10,783 nt of DNA from Pseudomonadota bacterium (GTDB lineage Bacteria > Pseudomonadota > Gammaproteobacteria > Steroidobacterales > Steroidobacteraceae), in NCBI GenBank assembly GCA_021817875.1, contig JAKAFQ010000100.1, positions 1 to 10,783 of the forward strand, written 5' to 3'. The position numbers and the translations under genes are program-made. Below, in pieces: positions 1 through 10,783 of the stretch. Under the pieces are notes generated by a model. The model did no database searches. It was given only the letters and a program-made list of their open reading frames with translations, and had not been told where the DNA came from. Numbering within the stretch: position 1 is the stretch's first letter; every line of letters begins with the position of its first letter.

Positions 1-809
1 TCCGCTGCATTGAACTTCGGTGCGCGCTTTTCGCGGGCGGCGGCGATGCCTTCCTTGAGATCCTCAGTGTGGCTCATCGTCGCCACGCCCCAGAAGCTTG
101 CGTTCATTGAGCTGATCAGGTCGAGATGCCAGCTCTGGCGCAACTGTTGTTTGGTGGCTTCGAGCGCAAGGCGCGGGTAGGCTGCGATGCGAGCCGCGAG
201 GGCCGCTGCCTCTTCGAGCAAAGCCTCGGGCGCCACGACTCGGTTGACGAGGCCAATCTCGAGAGCGCGCGCGGCGTCGATCACGTCGCCGGTGAACGCG
301 AGTTCGGCTGCGAGGCCCGAGCCGATCAGCCTTGGCAGGAAGTAGGTGCCGCCGTTTCCGGGATTCAGCCCCAGTTTGATGTAGGTCTCACCGAGCTTTG
401 CGCGTGTTGAAGCAAGGCGCATGTCACAGGCCAGCGCGAGGTCTAGGCCGCCTGCAGTGGCTCCACCGTTGATTGCTGCGATGACCGGCAGCCGGCAGGT
501 GACAACACGCTGGGTCACCGGCCAGAGCACGCGGGCGTTGTACGGTTCGTGCGTTCGCGGCAACTCTTCGTCGATATAGCGCTGGAACTCGACGAGGTCG
601 GCACCTGCGCAGAACTGCTGGCCGGCGCCGGTAAGCACGAGAACGCGCACCGACGGGTCGGTCTCCAAGGTCGTCAGGGCGGCGAGCATGTCGCGAGCGA
701 GCTCGGGCACAACTCCGTTGCCTCGCTCGGGGCGGTTCATGGTGAGCAATGCGACGCCGTCGGCGACGATCTCGTAGTAGCACGTCTCGAGTTCGACTCG
801 CTGACTCAT
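1..809 (-). CDS. Enoyl-CoA hydratase/isomerase (crotonase) family protein, 3' end outside window
   Basis: Crotonase-fold enzyme acting on a CoA thioester, read from ATG at 809 for 269 codons without a stop; only a few C-terminal codons should be missing because the usual crotonase tail (KRAPKF) is present. The oxyanion-hole segment FCAGADL is at residues 66-72, and the second conserved loop (NGGATAGG) at 114-121 is followed by LALACDMRLA. The position of the first catalytic Glu of classical hydratases holds Asp123, and the position of the second Glu appears to be Tyr143, so simple syn-hydration is doubtful; an isomerase, hydrolase or lyase role is possible. A good Shine-Dalgarno (GGAAGG, 817-822) lies 7 bases before the start. 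It is the last visible gene of the minus-strand operon, 34 bases after the thiolase stop. Family is sure; reaction is not. Confidence 0.9.
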   Translation of the reverse strand, partial: MSQRVELETCYYEIVADGVALLTMNRPERGNGVVPELARDMLAALTTLETDPSVRVLVLTGAGQQFCAGADLVEFQRYIDEELPRTHEPYNARVLWPVTQRVVTCRLPVIAAINGGATAGGLDLALACDMRLASTRAKLGETYIKLGLNPGNGGTYFLPRLIGSGLAAELAFTGDVIDAARALEIGLVNRVVAPEALLEEAAALAARIAAYPRLALEATKQQLRQSWHLDLISSMNASFWGVATMSHTEDLKEGIAAAREKRAPKFNAA

Positions 810-843: not shown

Positions 844-2019
844 TCAGTCGACGCGCTTGACGACAGTCGAAACGGCCAGGGCGTAGGTGCCAGCCAGCCA
901 TCCGCCGCCATTGATCGCCAGGCCGACGCGGGCATTCTGGACTTGACGCTTGCCCGCCTCGCCGCGCAGTTGGTGGCAGAGCTCGACGACCTGCGCACAG
1001 CCGGTGGCGCCGAGAGCATGTCCGCGGCTGAGCAGCCCGCCGCTGACATTGACCGGAGTCTTGCCACCCAGATCCGTTTCACCTCTACGCACCAGGTGGT
1101 GAGCTTCGCCATGCTCGCACAGGTCGATTTCGCCGTATTGGAGTAGTTCGGCAGGGGCCGCGGCGTCGTGCAATTCGATCAGGTCGAATCCGCGTGGGCC
1201 GATGCCGGAGGACTCGTAGGCTGCCCGCGCGGCGGGCCGCACCGGGCTTTGCCGGTCGCCCGGCGAAGCGGCAACATGGGAGCAGACAACTTCGACCACC
1301 TTGCGCTTGAGCCGCTTGGCGTATCCGGGCGAGCACAACAGCAGTGCAGCGGCGCCATCTGTGGTCGGGGCGCACATGGCCAATGTCAGGGGGTCGACGA
1401 TCAGGCGGCTGGCCATCACCTCCTCGATCGTCTGCGGCGTACGAAAGTGGGCGTTTTCGTTCAGTGCAGCATGACGGCGGTTCTTGACAGCGACGCGGGC
1501 GAAGTCTTCGGCGGTGGCCTGATGCTCACTCAGATACTCGCGTGCGACGCCGGCGTAGAAGTCCATCAGGATCGAGTTACTCGCCATTTCGCCGGGCACC
1601 GCCTCACCGATTTCTTCGATGTCGGTGGAACCGCGGAGCGCGTTGAAAGGGCGTGTCCGGTCCGCATGGTTCATCTGCTCCGCGCCGATCACCATGATGA
1701 CTTCGGCCCGTCCGCCGGAGATCGCGTCAAAGGCCAATTGCAGAGCAGACCCGCCAGAAGCACATGCATTCTCAACGTTGATAAGCGACTTGCGACCCAG
1801 CGCGTGATGTCGTAGAGCGACCTGACCCCGGATCATCTCCTGCTGATTGACGATGCCCGCGATTGCATTGCCAAAGAACACTCTCTGCACATCCTCGGCC
1901 GGAATGCCGGCATCGGCAAGCGCCTTGTCGGCGGCTTCGACAGCCATCGCTCGGATGCCGCGTCCTGCAAACCGGCCAAATTGGGTCATGCCGACGCCGG
2001 CAATCAAGACTCGTGTCAC
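844..2019 (-). CDS. Thiolase family protein (SCP2/acetyl-CoA acetyltransferase-like), active-site residues present
   Basis: Thiolase-fold enzyme of 391 residues, expected to cleave a 3-ketoacyl-CoA with CoASH, or to run the reverse condensation. The nucleophilic Cys86 sits in NACASGG, His284 in the HDAAAPAE motif (HDxFxPAE type), and His334 in SGGLLSRGHALGATG. The C-terminal glycine loop is INGGG, lacking the second Cys of classical biosynthetic thiolases, as is common in the SCP2-like branch. The start is a GTG whose bases overlap the TGA of the upstream ligase gene (GTGA, 2016-2019), with AAGGAG 8 bases upstream, so translation is probably coupled. It forms part of the six-gene minus-strand operon. 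Unlike the other thiolase-fold gene of this operon it keeps the catalytic set, so it is the best candidate for the true thiolytic step. Substrate unknown. Confidence 0.93.
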   Translation of the reverse strand: MTRVLIAGVGMTQFGRFAGRGIRAMAVEAADKALADAGIPAEDVQRVFFGNAIAGIVNQQEMIRGQVALRHHALGRKSLINVENACASGGSALQLAFDAISGGRAEVIMVIGAEQMNHADRTRPFNALRGSTDIEEIGEAVPGEMASNSILMDFYAGVAREYLSEHQATAEDFARVAVKNRRHAALNENAHFRTPQTIEEVMASRLIVDPLTLAMCAPTTDGAAALLLCSPGYAKRLKRKVVEVVCSHVAASPGDRQSPVRPAARAAYESSGIGPRGFDLIELHDAAAPAELLQYGEIDLCEHGEAHHLVRRGETDLGGKTPVNVSGGLLSRGHALGATGCAQVVELCHQLRGEAGKRQVQNARVGLAINGGGWLAGTYALAVSTVVKRVD

Positions 2020-3620
2020 TTGGATCTCTCCTTCGTTGCTGACTTCGGCGTCGGTGCACCACCGCCGATGCGGCCCTCATGCCCGACCCAGTACTTTTCG
2101 CGGATCTCCCGGCGCATCACCTTCCCGTAGCCACTGACGGGCAGGGCATCGGTGAACTCCACGCTCTTGGGCTTCTTGTAGCCGGCCAGATTGCGACCGC
2201 AGTGATCGATGATGTCGTTCGCGGTCACCGAAGCGCCCGGCTCCAAGACCACGAGTGCATGCACCGCCTCGCCCCAGTACTCGTGCGGGATGCCGAACAC
2301 CACGACAGTGTTGACGGCCGGGTGCTGCACGATCACTTCCTCGACTTCGCGCGGATAGACGTTGTTGCCACCGCTGATGATCATGTCTTTGGCGCGGTCG
2401 AGCAGAAACAGGTAGCCTGTTTCGTCGAGCATGCCGATGTCCCCTGTGTGCAGCCAGCCGCCGCGCATCGTCTCGGCAGTGGCTTCTGGGTTGTTCCAGT
2501 AGCCTTGCATGACGATGTCGCCGCGCACGCAGATTTCACCTTCCTGGCCAGGTGGAAGCGTCCGATCATCGGCGTCGACGACTCGCACTTCGACGTCGGT
2601 GCGGATCGTGCCGGCTGAGCCGATTCGCGGGTCGTTCGCGGCAAGCAGGCGGGAGTGATCGGCCGAACTCATACCACTGATCGTGATCGGCGACTCGCCC
2701 TGGCCATAGAGCTGGACGAACACTGGCCCAAAGGCCTTGATGGCATTGCGGAGGTGCTCGACGTAGATGGGTGCCCCACCGTACGTGATCGCTTTCAGGC
2801 TCGAAAGGTCGAATCGGCCGGGGACGAAGTCCTCGAGCATCTTGATGATTTGCGTTGGAGCGAGAAACGCGATGTGAGAGACCTTCTTGGACTCGATCAG
2901 CGCAAAGAAAGCCGCCGGCTCGAAGCTCTTGCTTTCGAAGATCACGTTGGTCGCGGCCCGCGCGATCGCTGGCAGCGCGATGATCCCGCTTCCATGGGAC
3001 AGCGGCGCGGCGTGAGCCACTACCTCGCCGGGCTGGATGTTGTGCAAGTCGGCAAGGTAGTTCATGACCATGACGCGTACGGTACGGTGCGTCCATGTCG
3101 CGCCCTTGGGCCGCCCTGTCGTGCCGGACGTGTAGAACAGCCAGCACGGATCCGTCGCCTGCACCTCCGCGGCCTCTTTCAGTTTCGCAGCCGGATCCAG
3201 CAGATGTGCATAGGCGATGGCGTCCGCAACTTCGTCGGTGCAGACGCGATGCCGTAAACCGGCGAAGTCGGCCAAGTGCTCGCGAATGCCTTCGTCGTAC
3301 TCGGCACCGTGTATCAGCACCTTTGCACCGGAATTGCCCACGATGTAGGCCATCTCTTTGGGGTGCAGGCGGGCGTTTATGGGAACCACCACCAGCCCCG
3401 CAGCGAAGCAGGCAAACACCGTCTCCAGGATGCGCGGGCTGTTGGCCAGGCAGAACGCCACGCGGTCGCCGCGCTGCAGGCCCCGTGCAAGCAGGTTGCC
3501 GCCGATAGTCAGCGCCCGTTCGTGGAACTCCCGATAGGTCAGTGTTTCCGTTCCATGAACGATGGCGGCCTGATCTGCGCGAAGGCGCGTTGCTTTCTCG
3601 AGAAATGCAAAGGTATTCAT
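2016..3620 (-). CDS. AMP-forming acyl-CoA synthetase/ligase (ANL superfamily)
   Basis: A 534-residue ligase that would activate a carboxylic acid with ATP and CoA through an acyl-adenylate, a normal length for the family. The motifs come in order: P-loop YTSGTTGRPKG at 163-173, the YGGAP segment at 280-284, YGQGES at 305-310, the ATP-ribose Asp394 in HTGD (391-394), hinge region DRAKDMIISGG (408-418), and the A10 motif GYGKVMRRE with the adenylation Lys500. All key residues are present, so it should be active. It follows the DUF35 gene by 9 bases and overlaps the next gene by 4. No strong Shine-Dalgarno is seen before its ATG, consistent with coupling to the upstream gene. A member of the medium/long-chain or cyclic acid ligase group is likely; the acid cannot be named from sequence. 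The C-terminal tail (about 515-534) is basic and low in complexity. Confidence 0.95.
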   Translation of the reverse strand: MNTFAFLEKATRLRADQAAIVHGTETLTYREFHERALTIGGNLLARGLQRGDRVAFCLANSPRILETVFACFAAGLVVVPINARLHPKEMAYIVGNSGAKVLIHGAEYDEGIREHLADFAGLRHRVCTDEVADAIAYAHLLDPAAKLKEAAEVQATDPCWLFYTSGTTGRPKGATWTHRTVRVMVMNYLADLHNIQPGEVVAHAAPLSHGSGIIALPAIARAATNVIFESKSFEPAAFFALIESKKVSHIAFLAPTQIIKMLEDFVPGRFDLSSLKAITYGGAPIYVEHLRNAIKAFGPVFVQLYGQGESPITISGMSSADHSRLLAANDPRIGSAGTIRTDVEVRVVDADDRTLPPGQEGEICVRGDIVMQGYWNNPEATAETMRGGWLHTGDIGMLDETGYLFLLDRAKDMIISGGNNVYPREVEEVIVQHPAVNTVVVFGIPHEYWGEAVHALVVLEPGASVTANDIIDHCGRNLAGYKKPKSVEFTDALPVSGYGKVMRREIREKYWVGHEGRIGGGAPTPKSATKERSK

Positions 3621-3629
3621 CGCGGCCAG

Positions 3630-4034
3630 TCAGGATTTGGCGTTTGTGAACCATGCACAGTCGCGCGGTGCAACTTGCTGTGGTGGCGCCGACGAGAACG
3701 CCACCGGTTGCTCACACTCGTAGCTGGTCCAACTTCCATCGGTGTCGGGCCGCAAGCGGGTGAGCATCTGCACACCCTCTTCCAGTTTCACGACGCCCAC
3801 CGCGTACGGCAGATCCTGGGAGAAGCCTTCGGGCGCCCCCGCGAGCAGCACGGTAAAGCTGTGCAGTACCCCCTTGCCCGCGGACTTCTGCCAACCCAGT
3901 GACTGCGACTGACAGTGCGGGCAAGCATGCCGGGGGTACATGTTCAGCTTGCCGCAGTCGTTGCATTTCTGCAGGAGCAACTCGCCACGGCTGAGGCCGG
4001 CGCGGAATTCGTCCCGGATCAGATTGGTACTCAT
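3630..4034 (-). CDS. DUF35-type protein: zinc ribbon plus OB-fold acyl-CoA-binding domain
   Basis: A 134-residue protein with the two-part structure of the DUF35/OB-fold family. The N-terminal rubredoxin-like zinc ribbon has Cys24 and Cys27 (CNDC) and Cys38 and Cys41 (CPHC); an OB-fold follows from about residue 50 to the end. Family members are non-catalytic partners that sit on thiolase-fold enzymes (for example ChsH2 with Ltp2, or BbsA with BbsB) and help bind CoA substrates. Here the gene starts within the stop codon of the upstream thiolase-like gene (TGATG, 4032-4036), which strongly suggests the two proteins form a complex. The four Cys are all present, so zinc binding is expected. Upstream purine-rich sequence (GGGGG, about 4041-4045) can serve as ribosome site. 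Confidence 0.92.
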   Translation of the reverse strand: MSTNLIRDEFRAGLSRGELLLQKCNDCGKLNMYPRHACPHCQSQSLGWQKSAGKGVLHSFTVLLAGAPEGFSQDLPYAVGVVKLEEGVQMLTRLRPDTDGSWTSYECEQPVAFSSAPPQQVAPRDCAWFTNAKS

Positions 4035-5263
4035 CAGTTGCCCCCGTTTGCGCCCTGCTCGAGGAGCAGGATCTGTGCGTCCATGTAACTTCCGCCGGTA
4101 CCACCCACGACGCAGCGCTTGACTCCCGGTACTTGTCGCTGTGAGCCGGCCCGGCCAAGCAATTGGCGAACCCCCTCGACGAGGAGCGCTGTGCCACCCC
4201 CGACTCCCGTGTGGCCGGCGGAAAGCATGCCGCCGTTGGTGTTGCAGGGCAGCTTGCCGCCCGGGTCGGCGGCTCCGGAGGCGAACCAGCGGGCCCCTTC
4301 GCCCGGCTCGCAGAAGCCAAGACCTTCAACAGCACTGGTGGTGACCGCCGCATAGGTGTCGTAGATCTGCGCCATCTGGATGTCCTTGGGACTCCAGCCA
4401 GACTGCTCGTAGGCTCTTCGGGCCGCCGTGGCCCATCCGAGCGTGGCCAGGTCACGTTCTTGACCAATGCTGTAGTGGCTGACACAACCACCGGAACCCG
4501 CAACGCGTACCGTGGCACCAATGCCGCGTCGGCGCGCGTTTTCGGCGCTGGTCATCACAAATGCCACGGCGCCGTCCGCCAGCATCGGGCACTCGAGCGC
4601 ATGAAGCGGATCGGCAACCATCTTTGAGGCCAAGACCTTCTCAACCGTCAAGGGCTTGCCGTAGTACATGGCGTTGGGGTTGAGCTGAGCCCACTTCCGA
4701 AGCGTCACGCAGACCGATGCCATGTCGGCCGCGCTCGAATGCGTGGCGTACATATAGCGCCGCTGGATGAGTGCCCCGATGGCATTGAACTGCAGGCCTG
4801 TGGGCTTTTCCCATTCGTTAGGAATGCCGTACCGGCTGAGCATCGTGACCATCTCATTCACATCGGCTGAACCCCAGCGCTCGCAGTTGAGCACCAGCAC
4901 GTTGCGCGCGTGTCCCGAAGCAATCAGCCCCGAGGCTAGGCGCACCGCGTTGTCGCTCGTGGACCCGCCCGAGTGCACCATGAAGCTCGACTTGAGATGT
5001 CCCAGCAGCCCCAACTCCTCCGCCATGCGCGAGAAGATGAGGTCGGCTTGATCGACGGGCGAGTGAAGGCACGGGATCAGCAGGATGGTGTCGACGTCGC
5101 GCGGCACCATGCCCGCGTCCTTCAGCGCGAGCAAGCCCACATGGGTCAGGTCGCCAATGAAGTTGCGGTCGGGATAGCGTCCAGAGGGCAACTCCCCCGT
5201 CCCGATGAAGACCGGATCGTTGGGCGACTTGGCGCTGATGTTGAGGGGCCAGGTGTCTGCCAT
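4034..5263 (-). CDS. Thiolase-fold protein lacking the catalytic Cys; possible Ltp2-like aldolase subunit
   Basis: A 409-residue thiolase-superfamily protein with an altered active site. Where the other thiolase of this operon has NACASGG, this one reads MVHSGGSTSD (residues 95-104), with no Cys at the nucleophile position. The usual HDxF motif is YDTYAAV, so His is replaced by Tyr301. The third motif, NGGMLSAGHTGVGGG (343-357), keeps His351. The C-terminal loop is VVGGTGG (385-391). A claisen-type thiolase reaction through an acyl-Cys is therefore unlikely. From memory, the steroid side-chain aldolase Ltp2 also lacks the Cys, uses Tyr residues, and needs a DUF35 partner; the DUF35 gene directly overlaps here. 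A retro-aldol role on a 3-hydroxyacyl-CoA is the inference. It starts 2 bases after the maoC stop, with AGGGAG 7 bases before the ATG. A structural, non-catalytic role is the alternative. Confidence 0.9.
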   Translation of the reverse strand: MADTWPLNISAKSPNDPVFIGTGELPSGRYPDRNFIGDLTHVGLLALKDAGMVPRDVDTILLIPCLHSPVDQADLIFSRMAEELGLLGHLKSSFMVHSGGSTSDNAVRLASGLIASGHARNVLVLNCERWGSADVNEMVTMLSRYGIPNEWEKPTGLQFNAIGALIQRRYMYATHSSAADMASVCVTLRKWAQLNPNAMYYGKPLTVEKVLASKMVADPLHALECPMLADGAVAFVMTSAENARRRGIGATVRVAGSGGCVSHYSIGQERDLATLGWATAARRAYEQSGWSPKDIQMAQIYDTYAAVTTSAVEGLGFCEPGEGARWFASGAADPGGKLPCNTNGGMLSAGHTGVGGGTALLVEGVRQLLGRAGSQRQVPGVKRCVVGGTGGSYMDAQILLLEQGANGGN

Positions 5264-5265
5264 GG

Positions 5266-5748
5266 TCAGGCTCCCTGCTGGACGCGGCGCCGCGCCAGCA
5301 TGATTTGCAGAAAGTTCATCACCTCTTCCTCTCGTTGATTGCGTACCGAGTAGTTCACGTGCACGGTGCCATACTTGGGGTTGTTGCCCGCGGAGAGTTC
5401 GACGACGGTCGCGTGCACCTTCAGCGTGTCGCCAGAAATCACGGGCTTGAGCGCGCGCAGGGTCTTGATCTCGACCAAGGCGGTAATCGCATTGCCGTAG
5501 AAGCCGCTCATGCCCACAAGGCCGACCGCGAACGCAAAGGTCAGCGGGCCGTGCGCGATTCGCGTTCCGAAACGGGTCGACTTGCCGTACTCTTCGTCAG
5601 TGTGCAAAGGGTAGTGGTCACCGGTCAGACCGGAGAACACGGTGAGATCGCCGATATCAACCGTTCGGCCACGAGTGATCACCTTGTCGCCGACGGTGAA
5701 ATCCTCGAAGGTCTTCTCCTGAGGGTCGTTCCAGACGCGTTCGCTCAT
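5266..5748 (-). CDS. MaoC-family (R)-specific enoyl-CoA hydratase, hotdog fold
   Basis: A 160-residue single-hotdog protein of the MaoC/R-hydratase type, adding water to a trans-2-enoyl-CoA to give a 3-hydroxyacyl-CoA. The catalytic dyad is visible in GDHYPLH as Asp44 and His49 (family pattern DxNPxH, with Asn replaced by Tyr), followed by the overhanging segment ending RIAHGPLT (63-70). I chose the ATG at 5748 because GGAGAG (5755-5760) lies 6 bases upstream. A longer reading from a TTG at 5766 would place the start inside the operator and has no ribosome site. It is the first gene of the minus-strand operon, 27-30 bases from the predicted transcription start. Its likely product, a 3-hydroxyacyl-CoA, fits the proposed retro-aldol role of the next gene, as in the ChsH1-ChsH2-Ltp2 arrangement. 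It could also be a monomer or dimer partner without that link. Confidence 0.92.
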   Translation of the reverse strand: MSERVWNDPQEKTFEDFTVGDKVITRGRTVDIGDLTVFSGLTGDHYPLHTDEEYGKSTRFGTRIAHGPLTFAFAVGLVGMSGFYGNAITALVEIKTLRALKPVISGDTLKVHATVVELSAGNNPKYGTVHVNYSVRNQREEEVMNFLQIMLARRRVQQGA

Positions 5749-5760
5749 CAGCGGCTCTCC

Positions 5761-5776
5761 AAACAAGCATTTGTTT
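5761..5776. promoter_or_regulatory. Operator A: TetR-type palindrome at the start of the minus operon
   Basis: AAACAAGCATTTGTTT is a perfect 6-bp inverted repeat with a 4-base centre. It lies between the -10 box (5782-5787) and the Shine-Dalgarno (5755-5760) of the maoC gene, covering the predicted transcription start near 5775. The same sequence pattern occurs at two other promoters in the window and, weaker, ahead of the tetR gene. Binding here would block RNA polymerase. Seen directly; the regulator identity is inferred. Confidence 0.75.
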
Positions 5777-5781
5777 TGAAC

Positions 5782-5810
5782 ACTCTATGACTTCCGTGCA
5801 GCAACGTCAA
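5782..5810 (-). promoter_or_regulatory. Sigma-70-type promoter for the minus-strand CoA operon
   Basis: On the minus strand, a -35 box TTGACG (5805-5810) is followed after 17 bases by TAGAGT (5782-5787, 4 of 6 to TATAAT). Transcription would begin near 5775, giving a leader of about 27 bases to the maoC ATG. The downstream edge abuts operator A. Spacing and placement make this the likely single promoter for the six tightly linked genes. Confidence 0.65.
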
Positions 5811-5879
5811 GCCTCGATGACTCCTGAGTGACCCCCATGCCCGTCAGAGCCAGGTGCGCCGCGTTGCGGCCCGCTCCCA

Positions 5880-5908
5880 TTGACAGGTCGGCCACATGTT
5901 CATAGTAT
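5880..5908 (+). promoter_or_regulatory. Sigma-70-type promoter for the flavoprotein gene
   Basis: A consensus -35 TTGACA (5880-5885) is followed after exactly 17 bases by TAGTAT (5903-5908). Operator B begins at the very next base. The predicted start near 5915 leaves a leader of about 50 bases to the ATG at 5964. Together with the opposite-facing promoter at 5782-5810 it forms a divergent control region. Confidence 0.65.
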
Positions 5909-5924
5909 AAACAAATGATTGTTT
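5909..5924. promoter_or_regulatory. Operator B: TetR-type palindrome at the flavoprotein promoter
   Basis: AAACAAATGATTGTTT is a perfect 6-bp inverted repeat around a 4-base centre, starting directly after the -10 box and covering the predicted transcription start. It shares both half-sites with operators A and C. Its centre is 148 bases from that of operator A, about 14 helical turns, so cooperative binding across the divergent region is possible but unproven. Confidence 0.75.
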
Positions 5925-5963
5925 TGAGATCGCGTCGAGCCTGTTGGGTGGGGGTGCGCAGCG

Positions 5964-7154
5964 ATGCAACGGGTGCATGACCACATCGTCATTGCGGGCG
6001 GCGGGCTCGCGGCCGTGCGCACAGCGCAGGCGTTGCGCGACTTGAAGCACGAAGGGGCTATCACGCTCCTGTGTGCCGAAAACGAACTTCCGTACGACCG
6101 GCCGCCGCTGTCTAAGGCCTATCTGACGGGCAAAGTGGCCGATGAGCAGATTCGGCTGCTGCCGGCACAAGAGTACGCCGAACTCGGTATCGAGGTGCAG
6201 CTTGGCGCCCGTGCGGTTGGCTTGGACCGTGTCGGCCGATCCGTGCGCATCGCGGGTGGCCGCACTTTGAGCTACGACCACCTTGTCGTCGCAACGGGCG
6301 CGCGGCCGATCCGGTTGCCCGCCTTCGAGGGGCGCGAGAATGTCTATGTCCTTCGCGATTCAGGCGACGCAAGGCGCCTGCGCGAGGCGCTTGCGCCCGG
6401 ACGTCGACTTGGCATCGTCGGCGCGGGCTTCATTGGCCTGGAGATTGCCGCCACGGCACGTGAACTCGGCGCAGAGGTGACTTTGATCGAGGTCGCGGCG
6501 GCGCCGCTGGCGTCGATTCTCGGCACCGAGCTCGGAGGCTGCATTCAGCGTTGGCACGAACGCAAGGGGCTGCGTTTCCAGTGCGGCGCCGCTGTCCGCG
6601 CCGTGCACGGCAACGGCCGGGTCGAGTCGATTGAGCTGGTGACGGGCGCGGTAGTCGACGTCGATGCTGTCGTGGTCAGCGTCGGTCAGCTTCCCAATGT
6701 GGAATGGCTGGAAGCAGCAGGATTGCTTCTGAATCGAGGGCTGGTCTGCGACGCCCACGGGCGCACTCTCGATCCAAGGGTGTTCGGAGCGGGTGACGCG
6801 GTCTGCACGCAGGTCGGCACGTCCTTCCACCCGACCCGCCAATGGACGGCAGTGACAGAACAGGCCAGCCGAGTGGCCGCGGCATTGTGCCATCAGGGGG
6901 ACCCCGGCCCCGTCGTCGAGGACAACTACTTCTGGTCGGACCAGCACGGTCTTCGGCTGCAATTTGCTGGGCAGGTGCCGGCACAGCCGCGGCTTGTCTG
7001 GGTCCGTGGTGGCCCAGACGAGGAGCGATTTGCGGTTCTGTGCTGCACGTCGACCAGCGTGTCTGCGGTCTTCAGCCTGGGGTGCCCACGTGATTTCCTT
7101 GTTCACAGCATGCCCTTGCGCCGTGGTGAGCTGACGCCGGCGCCGATCGGTTGA
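5964..7154 (+). CDS. FAD/NAD(P)-dependent ferredoxin reductase-type flavoprotein
   Basis: A 396-residue pyridine nucleotide-disulfide oxidoreductase of the rubredoxin/ferredoxin reductase group, which moves electrons from NAD(P)H through FAD to a ferredoxin feeding an oxygenase or P450. The N-terminal FAD loop is IVIAGGGLAAVRTA (8-21), a GxGxxA variant; YDRPPLSK follows at 44-51 and ATGARP at 110-115. The NAD(P) Rossmann loop GIVGAGFIGLE is at 150-160 and ends at Glu176 (LIE), which favours NADH. The second FAD motif VFGAGDAV is at 273-280. No CxxxxC redox disulfide is seen, as expected for this group. A purine-rich stretch (GGTGGGGG, 5947-5954) lies 9 bases before the ATG. No ferredoxin, Rieske or P450 gene is in the window, so its partner must be elsewhere. 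It shares the operator with the CoA operon and is transcribed away from it. Confidence 0.92.
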   Translation: MQRVHDHIVIAGGGLAAVRTAQALRDLKHEGAITLLCAENELPYDRPPLSKAYLTGKVADEQIRLLPAQEYAELGIEVQLGARAVGLDRVGRSVRIAGGRTLSYDHLVVATGARPIRLPAFEGRENVYVLRDSGDARRLREALAPGRRLGIVGAGFIGLEIAATARELGAEVTLIEVAAAPLASILGTELGGCIQRWHERKGLRFQCGAAVRAVHGNGRVESIELVTGAVVDVDAVVVSVGQLPNVEWLEAAGLLLNRGLVCDAHGRTLDPRVFGAGDAVCTQVGTSFHPTRQWTAVTEQASRVAAALCHQGDPGPVVEDNYFWSDQHGLRLQFAGQVPAQPRLVWVRGGPDEERFAVLCCTSTSVSAVFSLGCPRDFLVHSMPLRRGELTPAPIG

Positions 7155-7177
7155 CTGGCGACCACGATTGGCGGAGA

Positions 7178-7197
7178 AGTGGCCCGAGTGGGCCGCT
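7178..7197 (+). terminator. Hairpin after the flavoprotein gene, possible weak terminator
   Basis: AGTGGCCC and GGGCCGCT pair as an 8-bp stem (one G-U) around the 4-base loop GAGT, 24 bases after the flavoprotein stop. There is no following run of T, so it is not a textbook intrinsic terminator. It could slow or end transcription before tetR, or stabilise the transcript end. Confidence 0.35.
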
Positions 7198-7238
7198 GAG
7201 TCCTGTTGGCGCAGAGGCGGCACGGGTCAGATTCTTGA

Positions 7239-7254
7239 GAGCAAACGCTTGTTC
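7239..7254. promoter_or_regulatory. Operator D: weaker copy of the palindrome ahead of tetR
   Basis: GAGCAAACGCTTGTTC keeps the CAA-N4-TTG core of operators A-C, with half-sites GAGCAA and (reversed) GAACAA that differ at one position. It lies about 70-85 bases before the tetR GTG, in the stretch where its promoter must be. This suggests autoregulation by the TetR protein. It is less like the others, so support is moderate. Confidence 0.55.
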
Positions 7255-7265
7255 CGAAATCTTCC

Positions 7266-7271
7266 TACAAT
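7266..7271 (+). promoter_or_regulatory. Possible -10 box for tetR
   Basis: TACAAT matches the -10 consensus in 5 of 6 bases and lies 54 bases before the GTG start of tetR. No good -35 is found at 16-18 bases upstream; that position falls within operator D. Binding of a protein there would block the promoter. A guess from one hexamer. Confidence 0.35.
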
Positions 7272-7325
7272 CCACTTCAAGACCGGCACCGATCCGTTCG
7301 GGCGCCTAACCTGAGGTTCAACCCA

Positions 7326-8018
7326 GTGAATAGTTCGGCGGTTACAAGTCTCAGCCCGCGCGAAGCCATCGCGGACGTCGCAGTCAAGTTGTTCAGTGAG
7401 CACGGCTATACGGGCACGACGATGCGAGACATCGCGAAGGCCGTCGGGGTATTGCCGGGAAGCCTCTACGCGCACATCGACAGCAAGGACCAGCTGCTGC
7501 TCGAGATCGTGAGCGAAGGGATCTCGCGTTTCCTTGGGATCGAAGGCGAGTTGAAGGGCACGAGAGCTTCGGCCATCGATCAACTGCGCACGGCAATTCG
7601 CTGGCACATGTCGGTGGTTGCGGAAGATCCGCAGCGCACGCTGGTCGTGTTCCACCAGTGGCGCTTCCTCGAGGAGCCAAACCGGTCCAAGGCGGTGGTG
7701 ATGCGGCGCCGGTACGCAGAGGCATTCTTTCGCATCATCGACCTGGGCAAGGCCAGCGGCGAATTTAGCCCGGCGCTTGACACGCGGGTGGCTGTGTTCG
7801 GCGTTCTTGGGGCTTTGAACTGGGTTCCCGAGTGGTTTTCGCCGAACGGCGCGATGACTGCTTCGGAGATTGCGGAAAGGCTTGCCGACACTCTGATCCG
7901 GGGTCTGTGTGCGGGCCCGACTTGGAACGGCGCCATGAGGAGTCCCTCAGCGGCCGAGCCCGCTGCTACGCAAGCAAAGTCTCGCGGTAAGAAGATTACC
8001 CGCAAACCTCCGCGCTGA
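7326..8018 (+). CDS. TetR/AcrR-family transcriptional regulator, possibly KstR2-like
   Basis: A 230-residue one-domain-plus-ligand-pocket repressor. The N-terminal helix-turn-helix covers about residues 12-58, with the recognition part TMRDIAKAVGVLPGSLYAHI (32-51) and the usual SKDQLL after it. The C-terminal domain ends with LNWVPEWFSPNGAMTASEIA, a pattern I associate with KstR2 and related regulators that bind CoA thioesters. A basic, low-complexity tail (about 206-230) follows. The start is GTG at 7326, with TGAGG 9 bases before it; no ATG upstream fits the domain. It lies among the palindromes it probably binds, with one ahead of its own gene. Expected role: repress the minus operon, the flavoprotein and the crotonase gene until a CoA intermediate accumulates. 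Ligand and exact subfamily are inferred. Confidence 0.9.
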   Translation: MNSSAVTSLSPREAIADVAVKLFSEHGYTGTTMRDIAKAVGVLPGSLYAHIDSKDQLLLEIVSEGISRFLGIEGELKGTRASAIDQLRTAIRWHMSVVAEDPQRTLVVFHQWRFLEEPNRSKAVVMRRRYAEAFFRIIDLGKASGEFSPALDTRVAVFGVLGALNWVPEWFSPNGAMTASEIAERLADTLIRGLCAGPTWNGAMRSPSAAEPAATQAKSRGKKITRKPPR

Positions 8019-8115
8019 GATCAACTGCGAGAGGTCACGCCAGGGTGTGCTTCGGTTGAGCTTGGGGTCCCCAGTCGATTGTTAGTGCTTCCCCAAGGGG
8101 CCTGGGTCTATCCCC

Positions 8116-8143
8116 TTGACAACGACGGAGTGCGCGATCTAAG
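8116..8143 (+). promoter_or_regulatory. Sigma-70-type promoter for the truncated crotonase gene
   Basis: A consensus -35 TTGACA (8116-8121) is followed after 16 bases by TCTAAG (8138-8143, 4 of 6). Operator C starts 4 bases further on, the same arrangement as at the other two promoters. The -10 is modest; the shared layout gives it weight. Confidence 0.55.
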
Positions 8144-8147
8144 CTCA

Positions 8148-8163
8148 AAACAACTGTTTGTTT
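8148..8163. promoter_or_regulatory. Operator C: TetR-type palindrome ahead of the truncated crotonase gene
   Basis: AAACAACTGTTTGTTT is a perfect 6-bp inverted repeat around a 4-base centre, just after the -10 box and over the predicted transcription start near 8150. Both half-sites equal those of operators A and B, so the crotonase gene should belong to the same regulon. Confidence 0.75.
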
Positions 8164-8302: not shown

Positions 8303-8846
8303 ATGACACAAATTGTCCCGCGCTTTGAAGGCTATTGTCGCCGCTACCGCAACATCGCGCTCGAACGCGATGACGGCGTTCTAACGATGCGCTTCCACAC
8401 TGCCGATGGCCCGTTCGTCTGGAGCGCCGAGGCTCACGAAGAGTTGGGCTTCTGCTTCTCCGATGTGGCTTCCGACCGCGACAACAAGGTCGTAGTGATG
8501 ACTGGAACTGGCGCGAGTTGGTGCGTGGACATCAACGCGGCCAGTTTCAAGCTCAGTTCCGCCGGCGACTGGGACCACATCATCCACGATGGAAGGCGTC
8601 TGCTGACGAATCTGATGGACATCGAGGTGCCGGTGATTGCCGCCGTGAACGGCCCCGCGCGCATCCACCCGGAAATCCCTGTGCTCGCGGACGTAGTGCT
8701 CGCAGCCGACACAGCGCTCTTCCAGGACGCGCCTCACTTTATGTCGGGCATCGTACCGGGCGACGGCGCGCACGTTGTCTGGCCGCATGTGCTGGGGCCA
8801 AACCGCGGACGCTATTTCCTGATTACTGGGCAGGAAATGAACGCGC
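8303..8846 (+). pseudogene. Enoyl-CoA hydratase/isomerase family gene, cut by an IS21-family element
   Basis: Native coding sequence runs from ATG at 8303 (AGGTG 8 bases upstream) for 181 residues and then enters the insertion sequence; crotonases are usually about 250-270 residues, so the C-terminal third is lost. Visible family features are [15 protein letters not shown] (68-82) in the place of the first oxyanion-hole loop, [20 protein letters not shown] (116-135) for the second, and [16 protein letters not shown] (140-155). Glu124 occupies the position of the first catalytic Glu; the second seems absent. The reading frame continues through IS sequence to a stop at 9041-9043, adding about 58 codons plus stop of unrelated residues antisense to istB. 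The missing C-terminal helices normally form the oligomer interface, so the product is probably inactive. It sits under operator C, so its intact form was part of the regulon. Confidence 0.85.
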
Positions 8847-8852
8847 TGTCAC

Positions 8853-8896
8853 GAGTCGGCGTAATCCGGCCACCCGGAGTCGGCATATATCGGCCA
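8853..8896. repeat. Two tandem 20-base repeats at the IS21 end
   Basis: GAGTCGGCGTAATCCGGCCA (8853-8872) and GAGTCGGCATATATCGGCCA (8877-8896) agree in 16 of 20 bases with a 24-base period. Multiple short repeats near the tips are typical transposase-binding sites of IS21-family elements. Confidence 0.7.
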
Positions 8897-8943
8897 GTGG
8901 AGCCGGTGCCGAGAGGGGTCTCGAACGACCCTGTTGAAGGACG

Positions 8944-9735
8944 TTATTTTGCCGGGTTTTGGGGTTTGTTCGAAGGGGTGTTTTTTGAAGCTGGCGGCAC
9001 CTTCGGATCGCGGTACGAACGCCCGTTGAGCTCGAGGCAGTAGGCGTTGTGGCGCAGGCGGTCGAGGGTGGCGGCGGCGAGCAGCCGGTTGGCGGCGAAG
9101 GCCTGGTCCCACTCGTCGAAGTCGAGGTTGCTGGTGACGATGGTGGCGGCCTGCTCGTAGCGCTCGGCGATGAGGTCGTGCAGGTCCTCGTCGGCCGGGG
9201 CGCGCAAGGGCTTGAGACCAAAGTCGTCGATGATGAGCAGGGGCACCCGCGCCAGGGTGGCGAGCTTGCGCTCGTAGGCACCGGTGGCGCGCGCCGCGTG
9301 CAGAGTCTGGGTGAGTCCGGCGCAGGTGGCGAACACGACGTCCACGCCCTGGCGCACGGCGCAGTGGCCCAGGGCCTGGGCCAAGTGCGATTTGCCCACG
9401 CCGCTGGGGCCGACGATGAGCACCGGGGCCTTCTCCTGCAGGTAACGCCCGCTGGCCAGGTCATGCACGAGCTGGCGGTTGAGCCTGGGGAGTCGATCGA
9501 AGTCGAACTGCTCCAGGGTCTTGTTCGTGCGGAACTGGGCACGGCGCAGGCGCATGGAGAACTTCTTGTTCTCACGCCTGGCGACCTCGTCGCCGACGAG
9601 CAGCGCGAGGAACTCGGTGTAGGCCAGCTTGCCGTCGATGGCCTGGCGGTTGCGGGCTTCGAGCGAGTCGAGGATGCCCGAGAGGCGAAGCTGCTTGAGC
9701 TGGGGGCCGAGCTCGGGGATGGGGTTGAGGTTCAT
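8944..9735 (-). CDS. istB: IS21-family ATPase helper protein IstB
   Basis: A 263-residue AAA+ ATPase that assists the IstA transposase by binding target DNA and remodelling it. Walker A is GPSGVGKS (109-116), Walker B LLIIDD (166-171), and the sensor segment TSNLDFDEW is at 201-209. I start it at the ATG at 9735 because AGGAG lies 7 bases upstream; the longer reading from a TTG at 9768 has no ribosome site. The N-terminal segment ([16 protein letters not shown]) is the usual IstB opening. It follows istA by 84 bases. All motifs are intact, so it should be functional. The last 15 or so residues are low-complexity. Confidence 0.95.
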
Positions 9736-9819
9736 GGAAGGGCTCCTGGTGGCGCAGCCGCGGCTCAAGGCACGCCGGGCGCGGGCCGCGGCGGCGAGCG
9801 CCGCGCCGACGGCGTGGGT

Positions 9820-10783
9820 TCAATGCAGGCTGGGCGGCTCGAACAGCTCGGCGGCCGAGCGCACGAAGCGCGCGCTGCGGTACGCGCTCGGGGTGTGGGT
9901 CTCGATGGGCGGCTGCTGGTCGGCGCCGGTGGCCAGGATGGTCTTGACGGTGCGGTAGTACGGGCTGCCGTGGTCCATCGCCCGGGCGCAGGCGGCTTCC
10001 AGACGCCCCTGGCCGAAGCGCTTGCCCAACTGCAGCACGCCTTGGGCTGCGCGCAGCCGCTCGGAGATGCGGTCGCTGAGCAGCGCCTCGATCAGCTCGG
10101 CGCAGCGCGGCCCCACCTTGCCGGCCTGCTGGACGCACCAGTGGCGGTCGTGGGCGAAGAAGGCTCGGGCCTGCGGCGGCATGTGGTCGGTGACGGTGCG
10201 CCGTTCGCCGCGACGCTGCACGCGGGCGTGGGTGTGGACGTGGCGGTAGTCCTCGAACAGGGCCACCGCGGAGTCGGTCGCGCGCAGCCACAGCACCTTG
10301 CCGACCAGGGTGAACGGCACCGAGTACAGGCCGTCATCGAACTTGACGTGGCAGTCGCGGTGCACGGTGACGCGGTGCCAGCTTCCCAGGTCGGGCGCGA
10401 CCGCCGGCAGCGGCAGCATCAGGGGCCGCTCCAGCTCGAACAGCGCCAGCGGCTGCTGGCGGGTCGTGCCGTGGTCGCGCCGGCCGGCTTCCTCCAGTAC
10501 CCAGGTGCGCGCCTGGGCGTTGAGATCGGCAAGGTCGCGGAAAGATCGCGTGGGCAGGAAGTTGCCCTTGACGTACTTCACGCCGGACTCGACGATGCCC
10601 TTCTTCTGTGGATCGTGGGGCGGGCAGGCCTCGATGCGGAAGCCATAGCCTTCGGCGCATTCGGCGTAGGCGCGCTGCACCAGCGGGTCGTGGTTGCACG
10701 CCTTGGTGATCGCGCACTTGGCGTTGTCGACGATCACCCGCGCCGGCACGGCGCCGAACCACTCGAAGGCGCGGCGGTGGCAA
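9820..10783 (-). CDS. istA: IS21-family transposase IstA, N-terminal part outside window
   Basis: The C-terminal part of a DDE transposase; the frame is open to the right edge, beginning with HRRAFEWFGAVPARVIVDN. The second catalytic Asp is in VDN (codon 10726-10728) and the catalytic Glu in KKGIVESGVKY (codon 10588-10590). The following region includes the family's C-terminal beta domain (HVKFDDGLYSVP). The stop is TGA at 9820-9822. The N-terminal helix-turn-helix and first catalytic Asp lie outside. A GTG at 10747-10749 could be misread as a start, but the family sequence plainly extends further. No frameshift is visible in this part, so the element may be active. Confidence 0.93.
   Translation of the reverse strand, partial: CHRRAFEWFGAVPARVIVDNAKCAITKACNHDPLVQRAYAECAEGYGFRIEACPPHDPQKKGIVESGVKYVKGNFLPTRSFRDLADLNAQARTWVLEEAGRRDHGTTRQQPLALFELERPLMLPLPAVAPDLGSWHRVTVHRDCHVKFDDGLYSVPFTLVGKVLWLRATDSAVALFEDYRHVHTHARVQRRGERRTVTDHMPPQARAFFAHDRHWCVQQAGKVGPRCAELIEALLSDRISERLRAAQGVLQLGKRFGQGRLEAACARAMDHGSPYYRTVKTILATGADQQPPIETHTPSAYRSARFVRSAAELFEPPSLH

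Follow-up and report, generated by a model that had tools for sequence, protein, structure and literature searches.

Which regulator reads a palindrome that recurs at several promoters of one catabolic cluster, and to what known system does that regulator belong? We address this question for a stretch of 10,783 nucleotides from a Pseudomonadota bacterium of the Steroidobacteraceae (contig JAKAFQ010000100.1, hereafter the window), which the first-pass annotation had described as a compact TetR regulon and likened to KstR2-type control. The names of relatives, too, make a proteobacterial origin of the window likely. Its nine annotated genes are as follows, with percentages referring to the comparison with Rhodococcus.

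3..809, minus strand: enoyl-CoA hydratase, running off the window (66% to Rhodococcus)
844..2019, minus strand: thiolase 2 (47% to Rhodococcus)
2016..3620, minus strand: acyl-CoA synthetase (38% to Rhodococcus)
3630..4034, minus strand: Zn-ribbon/OB-fold partner, ChsH2-like (47% to Rhodococcus)
4034..5263, minus strand: thiolase 1 (65% to Rhodococcus)
5266..5748, minus strand: MaoC-type hydratase, leading the leftward operon (57% to Rhodococcus)
5964..7154, plus strand: ferredoxin-NAD(P)H reductase, putative target of operator 2 (45% to a Rhodococcus gene)
7326..8018, plus strand: tetR, a repressor with TetR_N and TetR_C_24 domains and the recognition helix GSLYAHI (residues 45-51)
8303..8847 (end approximate, placed by eye), plus strand: enoyl-CoA hydratase of the third unit (46% to Rhodococcus ECHb)

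The last of these genes, behind operator 3 and beginning at 8303, is truncated, and the element that interrupts it looks like an IS21-type element. When plasmids were searched for closer DNA relatives of the window, the IS21 part alone was matched.

A pattern scan of the whole window recovered AAACAA-N4-TTGTTT exactly at 5761-5776, 5909-5924 and 8148-8163, together with a weaker copy ahead of tetR at 7239-7254 (3 mismatches), in full agreement with the three copies and one variant originally described; at up to 3 mismatches the scan returned these four sites and no others. Shuffled windows contained a mean of 0.90 places with up to 3 mismatches, with four being reached in 1 of 200 shuffles, and under a first-order Markov model 8.3e-5 exact copies would be expected per window, versus the 3 observed. 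Within each operator copy six of the eight pairs are complementary, and the four central bases are free. The operators and the promoters beside them are:

5761..5776, minus strand: operator 1, AAACAAGCATTTGTTT (read on the plus strand), exact match, at the promoter of the maoC-thiolase-OB-ACS-thiolase-ECH operon
5782..5810, minus strand: sigma-70-like promoter of the leftward operon, TTGACG-17-TAGAGT; operator 1 starts 5 bases after the -10
5880..5908, plus strand: sigma-70-like promoter of the ferredoxin reductase gene, TTGACA-17-TAGTAT; operator 2 starts 0 bases after the -10
5909..5924, plus strand: operator 2, AAACAAATGATTGTTT, exact match, abutting the -10 of the ferredoxin reductase promoter
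7239..7254, plus strand: weaker operator before tetR, GAGCAAACGCTTGTTC, 1 mismatch to AACnA-N4-TnGTT
8116..8143, plus strand: weak promoter of the third unit, TTGACA-16-TCTAAG, missed by the consensus promoter scanner
8148..8163, plus strand: operator 3, AAACAACTGTTTGTTT, exact match, 4 bases past the -10 of the third unit

As had been proposed, the exact copies begin 0-5 bases past a -10, with a TTGAC(A/G) -35 at a spacing of 16-17, the -10 of the third promoter (TCTAAG) being weak. The consensus scanner reported two promoters between 5600 and 8400 (shuffle mean 0.5), which are those of operators 1 and 2. The copy at 7239 does not share the -10/operator placement of the exact copies. The same layout is also what one would see if some other regulator bound these sites, or if they were core-promoter features, with the TetR a bystander: the sites fall where transcription would start in promoter-like sequences, binding by the TetR is a prediction, and the weakest of the four sites is the one before tetR itself. 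The homologous clusters described below bear on this point.

The TetR_N domain of the protein scores 60.3 bits (Pfam cut-off 24) and TetR_C_24 (PF17932) 110.9 bits (cut-off 26.4), placing it in the TetR/AcrR family and in the TetR_C_24 group. Its predicted structure is the all-helical TetR fold (pLDDT 88.9), and the best PDB match in the fold search is PfmR of Thermus thermophilus (TM 0.86-0.88 by target length). PfmR and AibR of Myxococcus xanthus are among the best structural matches, at 26-31% identity in that search, and the structural neighbours that bind CoA compounds are AibR with isovaleryl-CoA, FadR with stearoyl-CoA, and KstR2; AibR has been solved with isovaleryl-CoA and operator DNA, as judged by PDB titles. 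PfmR differs in its GC-rich operator, according to an excerpt of PMC7022988, and in its helix, ALYHHF versus SLYAHI in the window TetR.

KstR2, the repressor of the HIP/steroid ring pathway in mycolic-acid actinobacteria, shares with the window TetR the fold and the control of an acyl-CoA pathway. If the window protein were a KstR2-type repressor that responds to a steroid C/D-ring CoA thioester and was transferred into a proteobacterium, one could point to the sequence match with KstR2 (5.5e-15; rank 11 in the fold search), to the name 'cholesterol catabolism regulator' that a source gives to some relatives, and to an operator register, AnCAA....TTGnT, common to both systems (A at -7, C at -5, A at -3; KstR2 side from an excerpt of PMC3068626). 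The differences lie in the operator core, the recognition helix and, as far as the window extends, gene content. The KstR2 operator, given in that excerpt as AnCAAGnnCTTGnT, is nowhere matched exactly in the window, and against it the four sites show 1, 2, 1 and 2 mismatches; the recognition helix reads SLYHHF in KstR2 and SLYAHI in the window TetR; and KstR2 is the eighth best PDB sequence match. No ipdAB-type CoA transferase is found among the nine annotated genes of this short contig. In the tree, the KstR2-like Rhodococcus protein 2ibd, used as a stand-in for KstR2, falls in another group on a long branch with weak support (87/55), at most a weak point against the KstR2 reading. The motifs KstR2-3 (EDRNxQQRK) and KstR2-5 (YRFIRDT[VT]W), two of the five in PMC13176608 being checked, are absent from the window TetR, a weak test because KstR2-3 is reported, in the consulted portion of that paper, from Mycobacteriaceae only and 2ibd itself would fail the strict form of either motif. 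We therefore reject membership of KstR2 on the ground that its operator AnCAAGnnCTTGnT has no exact copy here; little is added by the motif test or by the tree, and the KstR2-type reading as a whole strikes us as very unlikely.

A closer parallel is PaaR of Thermus thermophilus (TTHA0973), a TetR repressor of phenylacetate genes, with the operator consensus AACnAACGTTnGTT in an excerpt of PMC6651687. The likeness extends to the acyl-CoA catabolic targets and the outer operator frame: AACnA-N4-TnGTT is matched exactly at three window sites, and the full consensus AACnAACGTTnGTT, as excerpted there, with 2 mismatches at each site. The likeness in helix comes by way of paa-linked Chloroflexota relatives, with SLY[AS]HI and near-PaaR sites, rather than from the sequence of TTHA0973 itself. 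Among 13 Chloroflexota TetRs with SLY[AS]HI, 12 lie near a paaA homologue in the stretch examined and the thirteenth lies beside a paaB-like match; the best sites of these TetRs depart from the Thermus PaaR consensus by 1-2 mismatches. These relatives, together with the resemblance of the window MaoC to the PaaZ hydratase domain, would suit a recruited true phenylacetate PaaR that responds to phenylacetyl-CoA or a close aryl-CoA, the cluster being an aromatic side-chain pathway. We regard this as unlikely: the core of the consensus is not matched, leaving the 2 mismatches at every window site, and paaABCDE are absent from the annotated genes both of the window and of the homologous Rhodococcus stretch. 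Full membership of PaaR is rejected because the operator core differs and the window lacks the paa linkage; PaaR is still the best description of how the window repressor would work.

The operator recurs in other bacteria. Plasmid pR8L1 of Rhodococcus sp. 008, 694 kb long, carries a homologous cluster whose two TetRs are 43% identical to that of the window, and all six places with up to 1 mismatch in the 694 kb scanned fall between genes of this cluster. At up to 2 mismatches there are eight operator-like sites across six intergenic stretches of the cluster; the -10/operator spacing is as in the window at four of the eight and at least three fit poorly, with promoter boxes chosen by a loose score and no shuffle control, and at one of the four well-fitting sites an alternative promoter candidate scores higher. 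Upstream of one of the two Rhodococcus tetR genes there is no site. Two further products of the cluster, an OTEMO-like Baeyer-Villiger enzyme and a P450 akin to CYP125 and P450cam, have their genes outside the window; they hint at a possible cyclic terpenoid substrate and speak against the phenylacetate reading. The 5.3 Mb of an actinobacterial MAG contain three places with up to 1 mismatch, all of them on the two contigs that carry matching pathway genes, and the only two such places on a Paraburkholderia plasmid flank its own TetR. In the tree, the window TetR groups with the Rhodococcus and actinobacterial-MAG TetRs (support 100/99); its closest relatives among those listed are 52-87% identical.

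Of the scans of four other records, those of the Rhodococcus plasmid and the actinobacterial MAG, both by way of the homologous pathway, thus bore out the suggested link to catabolic genes; a whole-record scan of the Chloroflexi MAG gave no excess of operator places. Totals at up to 2 mismatches, set against a reversed-pattern control, were 13 versus 9 for the Rhodococcus plasmid, 9 versus 5 for the actinobacterial MAG, 17 versus 17 for the Chloroflexi MAG and 9 versus 10 for the Paraburkholderia plasmid. Since these totals are near the control, the weight falls on where the sites lie and on the places with up to 1 mismatch. The compact-regulon proposal gains from finding this operator again in homologous clusters of other bacteria, in partly conserved placement, and its recurrence at the corresponding genes of distant bacteria makes the switch look both genuine and ancient.

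The frame is also associated with the sequence of the recognition helix. In the discovery set, AACnA-N4-TnGTT lies ahead of 18 of 27 tetR genes with the helix S[LI]Y[AS]H[IV] versus 0 of 34 with other helices; in a second set, with the rule stated beforehand, the counts are 12 of 29 versus 1 of 17. Relatedness of the genes counted inflates this association. One lineage, at the level of an order, fits poorly, with the exact frame present upstream of only 4 of the 20 tetR genes encoding S[LI]Y[AS]H[IV], and two Deinococcus members do not have the frame upstream of tetR. In two other phyla the frame stands ahead of numerous related tetR genes, and it is associated with the helix sequence; the sites, moreover, accompany homologous pathway genes with their TetRs. 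Both points argue against the TetR being a bystander, a reading that we consider very unlikely. A rule pairing a His/Tyr helix with C at -6 was dropped for want of cases (44 genes gave C three times and G once).

Taken together, the sites, their placement, the homologous sites and the helix association make it likely that the TetR encoded at 7326-8018 represses three units through AAACAA-N4-TTGTTT, with a DNA reading that is PaaR-like rather than KstR2-like (the frame AACnA-N4-TnGTT paired with the helix S[LI]Y[AS]H[IV]). The TetR_C_24 repressor, as a dimer, would occupy the site at three promoters, those of the leftward beta-oxidation operon, the ferredoxin reductase gene and the enoyl-CoA hydratase gene. 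RNA polymerase would be blocked because the bound site lies right behind the -10, where transcription starts, and tetR would damp its own expression through the weaker site at 7239. Release would most likely come from a CoA thioester of the pathway, as with phenylacetyl-CoA for PaaR and isovaleryl-CoA for AibR. Most probably, then, the protein is a PaaR-like repressor responsive to acyl-CoA and belongs to a known general type, with its binding and effector predicted.

More tentatively, and with odds that we put somewhat below even, the operator of a TetR_C_24 repressor may be readable from its helix, S-L-Y-(A/S/G)-H-(I/V) corresponding to AACnA-N4-TnGTT and a bulky His/Tyr turning the A at -6 to C or G. 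Such a rule would hold for the repressors of very distinct acyl-CoA pathways across Actinomycetota, Chloroflexota and Pseudomonadota, and the window's pathway would have passed from phylum to phylum along with its repressor and operators, often keeping the 0-5 base spacing. Among the open-licence papers listed in literature searches, none had a title or opening lines of an abstract on this operator; the recognition-code work listed there concerns the LacI, GntR and IclR families.

The regulator and its sites are a candidate for an inducible switch acting on a degradative route whose Rhodococcus version includes an OTEMO-like Baeyer-Villiger enzyme and the P450. Operators are known for few of the very common TetR repressors that control acyl-CoA pathways; if an operator frame can be linked to a short motif in the helix, sites and targets could be predicted from sequence for many unstudied regulators.

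The AAACAA-N4-TTGTTT operator reported in the first-pass annotation was found as described, with three exact 16-mers (5761–5776, 5909–5924 and 8148–8163) and a weaker copy (7239–7254) ahead of tetR, and a search of the window at up to three mismatches returned no further places. The expected number of exact copies in the window is 8.3e-5, versus the 3 observed. The placement claimed for the exact copies, just past a -10 box, stands as to spacing (operator start 5, 0 and 4 bases past the -10 for the copies at 5761, 5909 and 8148), but the third -10 is weak. A consensus promoter scanner detected only the first two of the three promoters, and the variant lacks the -10/operator placement of the exact copies. 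Gene calling with Pfam and NCBIfam named nine protein genes in the window.

Protein genes of the window, with protein identity to the counterpart on Rhodococcus plasmid pR8L1
3–809, leftward, enoyl-CoA hydratase, running off the window end (66%)
844–2019, leftward, thiolase 2 (47%)
2016–3620, leftward, acyl-CoA synthetase (38%)
3630–4034, leftward, Zn-ribbon/OB-fold partner (OB protein; 47%)
4034–5263, leftward, thiolase 1 (65%)
5266–5748, leftward, MaoC hydratase (57%)
5964–7154, rightward, ferredoxin reductase (45%)
7326–8018, rightward, TetR repressor (43%; two copies on pR8L1)
8303 to about 8847, rightward, third enoyl-CoA hydratase, interrupted (46%)

The interruption of the third enoyl-CoA hydratase looks like an IS21-type element (8848–10783), apparently inserted into the third regulated gene. 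It contains, both on the minus strand, an istB-like gene (8944–9768) and a candidate istA-like frame that continues past the window end. Two 20-base direct repeats, of a sort typical of IS21 ends, lie at its end (8853 and 8877), and the istB stretch shares 72% DNA identity with Paraburkholderia plasmid copies.

The few named relatives of the TetR and thiolase 1 belong to Steroidobacteraceae, Rhodocyclaceae, Porticoccaceae, Panacagrimonas and Sphingomicrobium, which makes a proteobacterial host likely. Among the 120 proteins listed for each, five contig sizes are common to both (12580, 39940, 59521, 123035 and 295768), suggesting that the two may share contigs.

A TetR search among plasmids identified pR8L1 of Rhodococcus sp. 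008, where a cluster (locus L005) parallels the window gene for gene. This cluster carries eight operator places with up to two mismatches, in six intergenic stretches, the site at 24046 overlapping the final base of the preceding gene. The whole 694-kb plasmid contains 13 such places, or 11 distinct ones once two pairs of shifted readings are merged, and 8 of the 11 fall within 317855–339105; since a reversed control pattern gave 9 places versus 13 for the operator, the raw total alone is uninformative. All six places with at most one mismatch lie in this span, which is 3.1% of the record; simple arithmetic puts the chance at ~1e-9, for a span defined by the matches themselves. Counted without a shuffle control, half of the eight sites (8914, 12058, 18902 and 25855) have a TTG(A/T)C(A/G) -35 and an operator 0–5 bases past a -10-like hexamer, with a different promoter candidate scoring higher at 8914. 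Sites 4679 and 4620 have only poor boxes at that placement, and at 18768 and 24046 none appeared in the top four candidates for the strand that was scored. Taken together, the sites, their placement and the same operator at homologous genes elsewhere uphold the compact TetR regulon. The L005 cluster (3765–27320), which also encodes a P450, a ferredoxin, a Baeyer-Villiger enzyme, SDRs, an SMP-30/gluconolactonase-family protein and two paralogous TetRs, is apparently one operator regulon.

An actinobacterial MAG (G001, 5.3 Mb) has nine places with up to two mismatches (control 5), and its three places with at most one mismatch all lie on two contigs, C359 (L001) and C224 (L068). C359 encodes counterparts of the Rhodococcus acyl-CoA dehydrogenase (71% identity), P450 (66%), ferredoxin (59%), synthetase (57%) and TetR (44%). 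C224 carries thiolase 1 (68%), MaoC, the OB protein, enoyl-CoA hydratases, thiolase 2, a synthetase, a CoA transferase and a Rieske-oxygenase-like gene; its exact operator precedes an ORF with a signal-peptide-like start (judged by eye), ~400 bases past the pathway genes. The pathway is rare in the class of G001: thiolase 1 (E up to 1e-110) was found in 1 of its 395 genomes, G001 itself. A Paraburkholderia plasmid has 9 places (control 10), and the only two with at most one mismatch flank its own TetR. A Chloroflexi MAG (G002) has 17 places (control 17), where one two-mismatch place lies immediately upstream of the TetR gene.

Genomes with TetR relatives (E up to 1e-30) number 18 of 396 in Actinomycetota and 9 of 301 in Chloroflexota. 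Across the 61 TetR genes that formed a discovery set, the exact outer frame of the operator (AACnA-N4-TnGTT), sought within 300 bases upstream of tetR, precedes 16/23 genes with an SLYAH recognition helix versus 2/38 others (Fisher p = 1.3e-7; shuffle expectation 0.04 and 0.09). The two frame-bearing others have helices SIYAHI and SLYSHI, and post hoc regrouping as S[LI]Y[AS]H[IV] gives 18/27 versus 0/34. SLYAH genes without the exact frame are the window tetR (one mismatch), both Rhodococcus genes (one and two), L010, the near-identical L041 and L042 (one each) and the Deinococcus gene L077.

With the helix rule fixed beforehand, a second set of 46 further TetRs was scored. The class that includes G002 supplied 17 of them; the other 29 were the top-ranking ones with new loci in the order of genome G003. 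Predicted positives had the exact frame in 12/29 cases, or 15/29 at up to one mismatch (shuffle expectation 0.03 exact), and predicted negatives in 1/17 (helix SLYGHI; expectation 0.10). The resulting p = 0.016 is too good because six of the 17 negatives (L109, L110, L111, L113, L114 and L116) are close copies with near-identical upstream matches. Exact frames precede 8/9 predicted positives in Chloroflexota, the remaining one having one mismatch, and 4/20 in the order of G003, so the rule is good in some lineages and poor in another; in the latter the operator may lie elsewhere or autoregulation may have been lost.

Across all 107 TetRs, helices pairing a small residue with His have A at operator position -6 in 31/57 (C in 1, G in 1), helices with His or Tyr instead of the small residue in 0/44 (C in 3, G in 1), and the remaining six have G in one. 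None of these tests corrects for kinship among the TetRs. On the tree, helix class needs at least three changes, against a shuffled mean of 24.0, and well-supported branches force only one. One clade holds 13 Actinomycetota S[LI]YAH[IV] TetRs (L051–L056, L058–L063 and L065) whose own promoters carry AAACGACCGTTTGTTT-like sites, mostly the sole site in the 5–20 kb examined, from which the window's pathway is absent. Upstream of the tetR genes of L067 (G249; tetR at 9463 and 8649) and L134, with helices SLYYYI and SLYHHI, are the palindromes TACCAATCG(T/A)TTGGT(T/A) and AACCAAACGTTTGGTA, which have C at -6 and may represent a sister operator.

The proposal that the window TetR is of KstR2 type is not supported. 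The KstR2 operator, AnCAAGnnCTTGnT (PMC3068626), shares the register of the window sites but differs in its core, and the KstR2 helix, SLYHHF, differs from SLYAHI. Two KstR2 motifs described in PMC13176608 are absent from the window TetR, but their narrow definition leaves room for a distant KstR2 relative. A fold search with the window TetR model (pLDDT 88.9) placed PfmR, a Rhodococcus TetR and AibR with isovaleryl-CoA (its ligand according to PDB titles) closest, with KstR2 at rank 11. Two copies of AAGCAAATGCTTGTTT, in either orientation, lie near a Paraburkholderia TetR with a KstR2-type helix (SLFHHF); these sites (3981 and 8036 of L006, a Paraburkholderia sprentiae plasmid locus) surround the TetR, an AraC gene and beta-oxidation genes, making L006, among the loci examined, the strongest candidate for KstR2-like control in a proteobacterium.

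Thermus PaaR is the better model for how the window TetR reads DNA. Its measured consensus, AACnAACGTTnGTT (PMC6651687), shares the outer frame of the window sites but differs in core, and a title cited there gives phenylacetyl-CoA as effector. Chloroflexota SLY[AS]HI TetRs have best sites one or two mismatches from this consensus, with a paaA homologue in the stretch examined for 12/13 and a short paaB-like match in L096.

In the Rhodococcus cluster the operator also precedes the gene for the Baeyer-Villiger enzyme. In the PDB this enzyme matches OTEMO best (599.6 bits), an enzyme of camphor degradation, and the cluster's P450 matches CYP125 and P450cam. These similarities suggest that the probable Rhodococcus substrate is a cyclic terpenoid or an alicyclic acid of similar kind; the window has neither a Baeyer-Villiger enzyme gene nor a P450 gene. 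The sites, their placement, their occurrence at homologous genes and the clade of the TetR are direct observations; by established TetR biology, a TetR dimer would occupy each site, overlapping the transcription start, and would repress transcription until released by a CoA thioester of the pathway.
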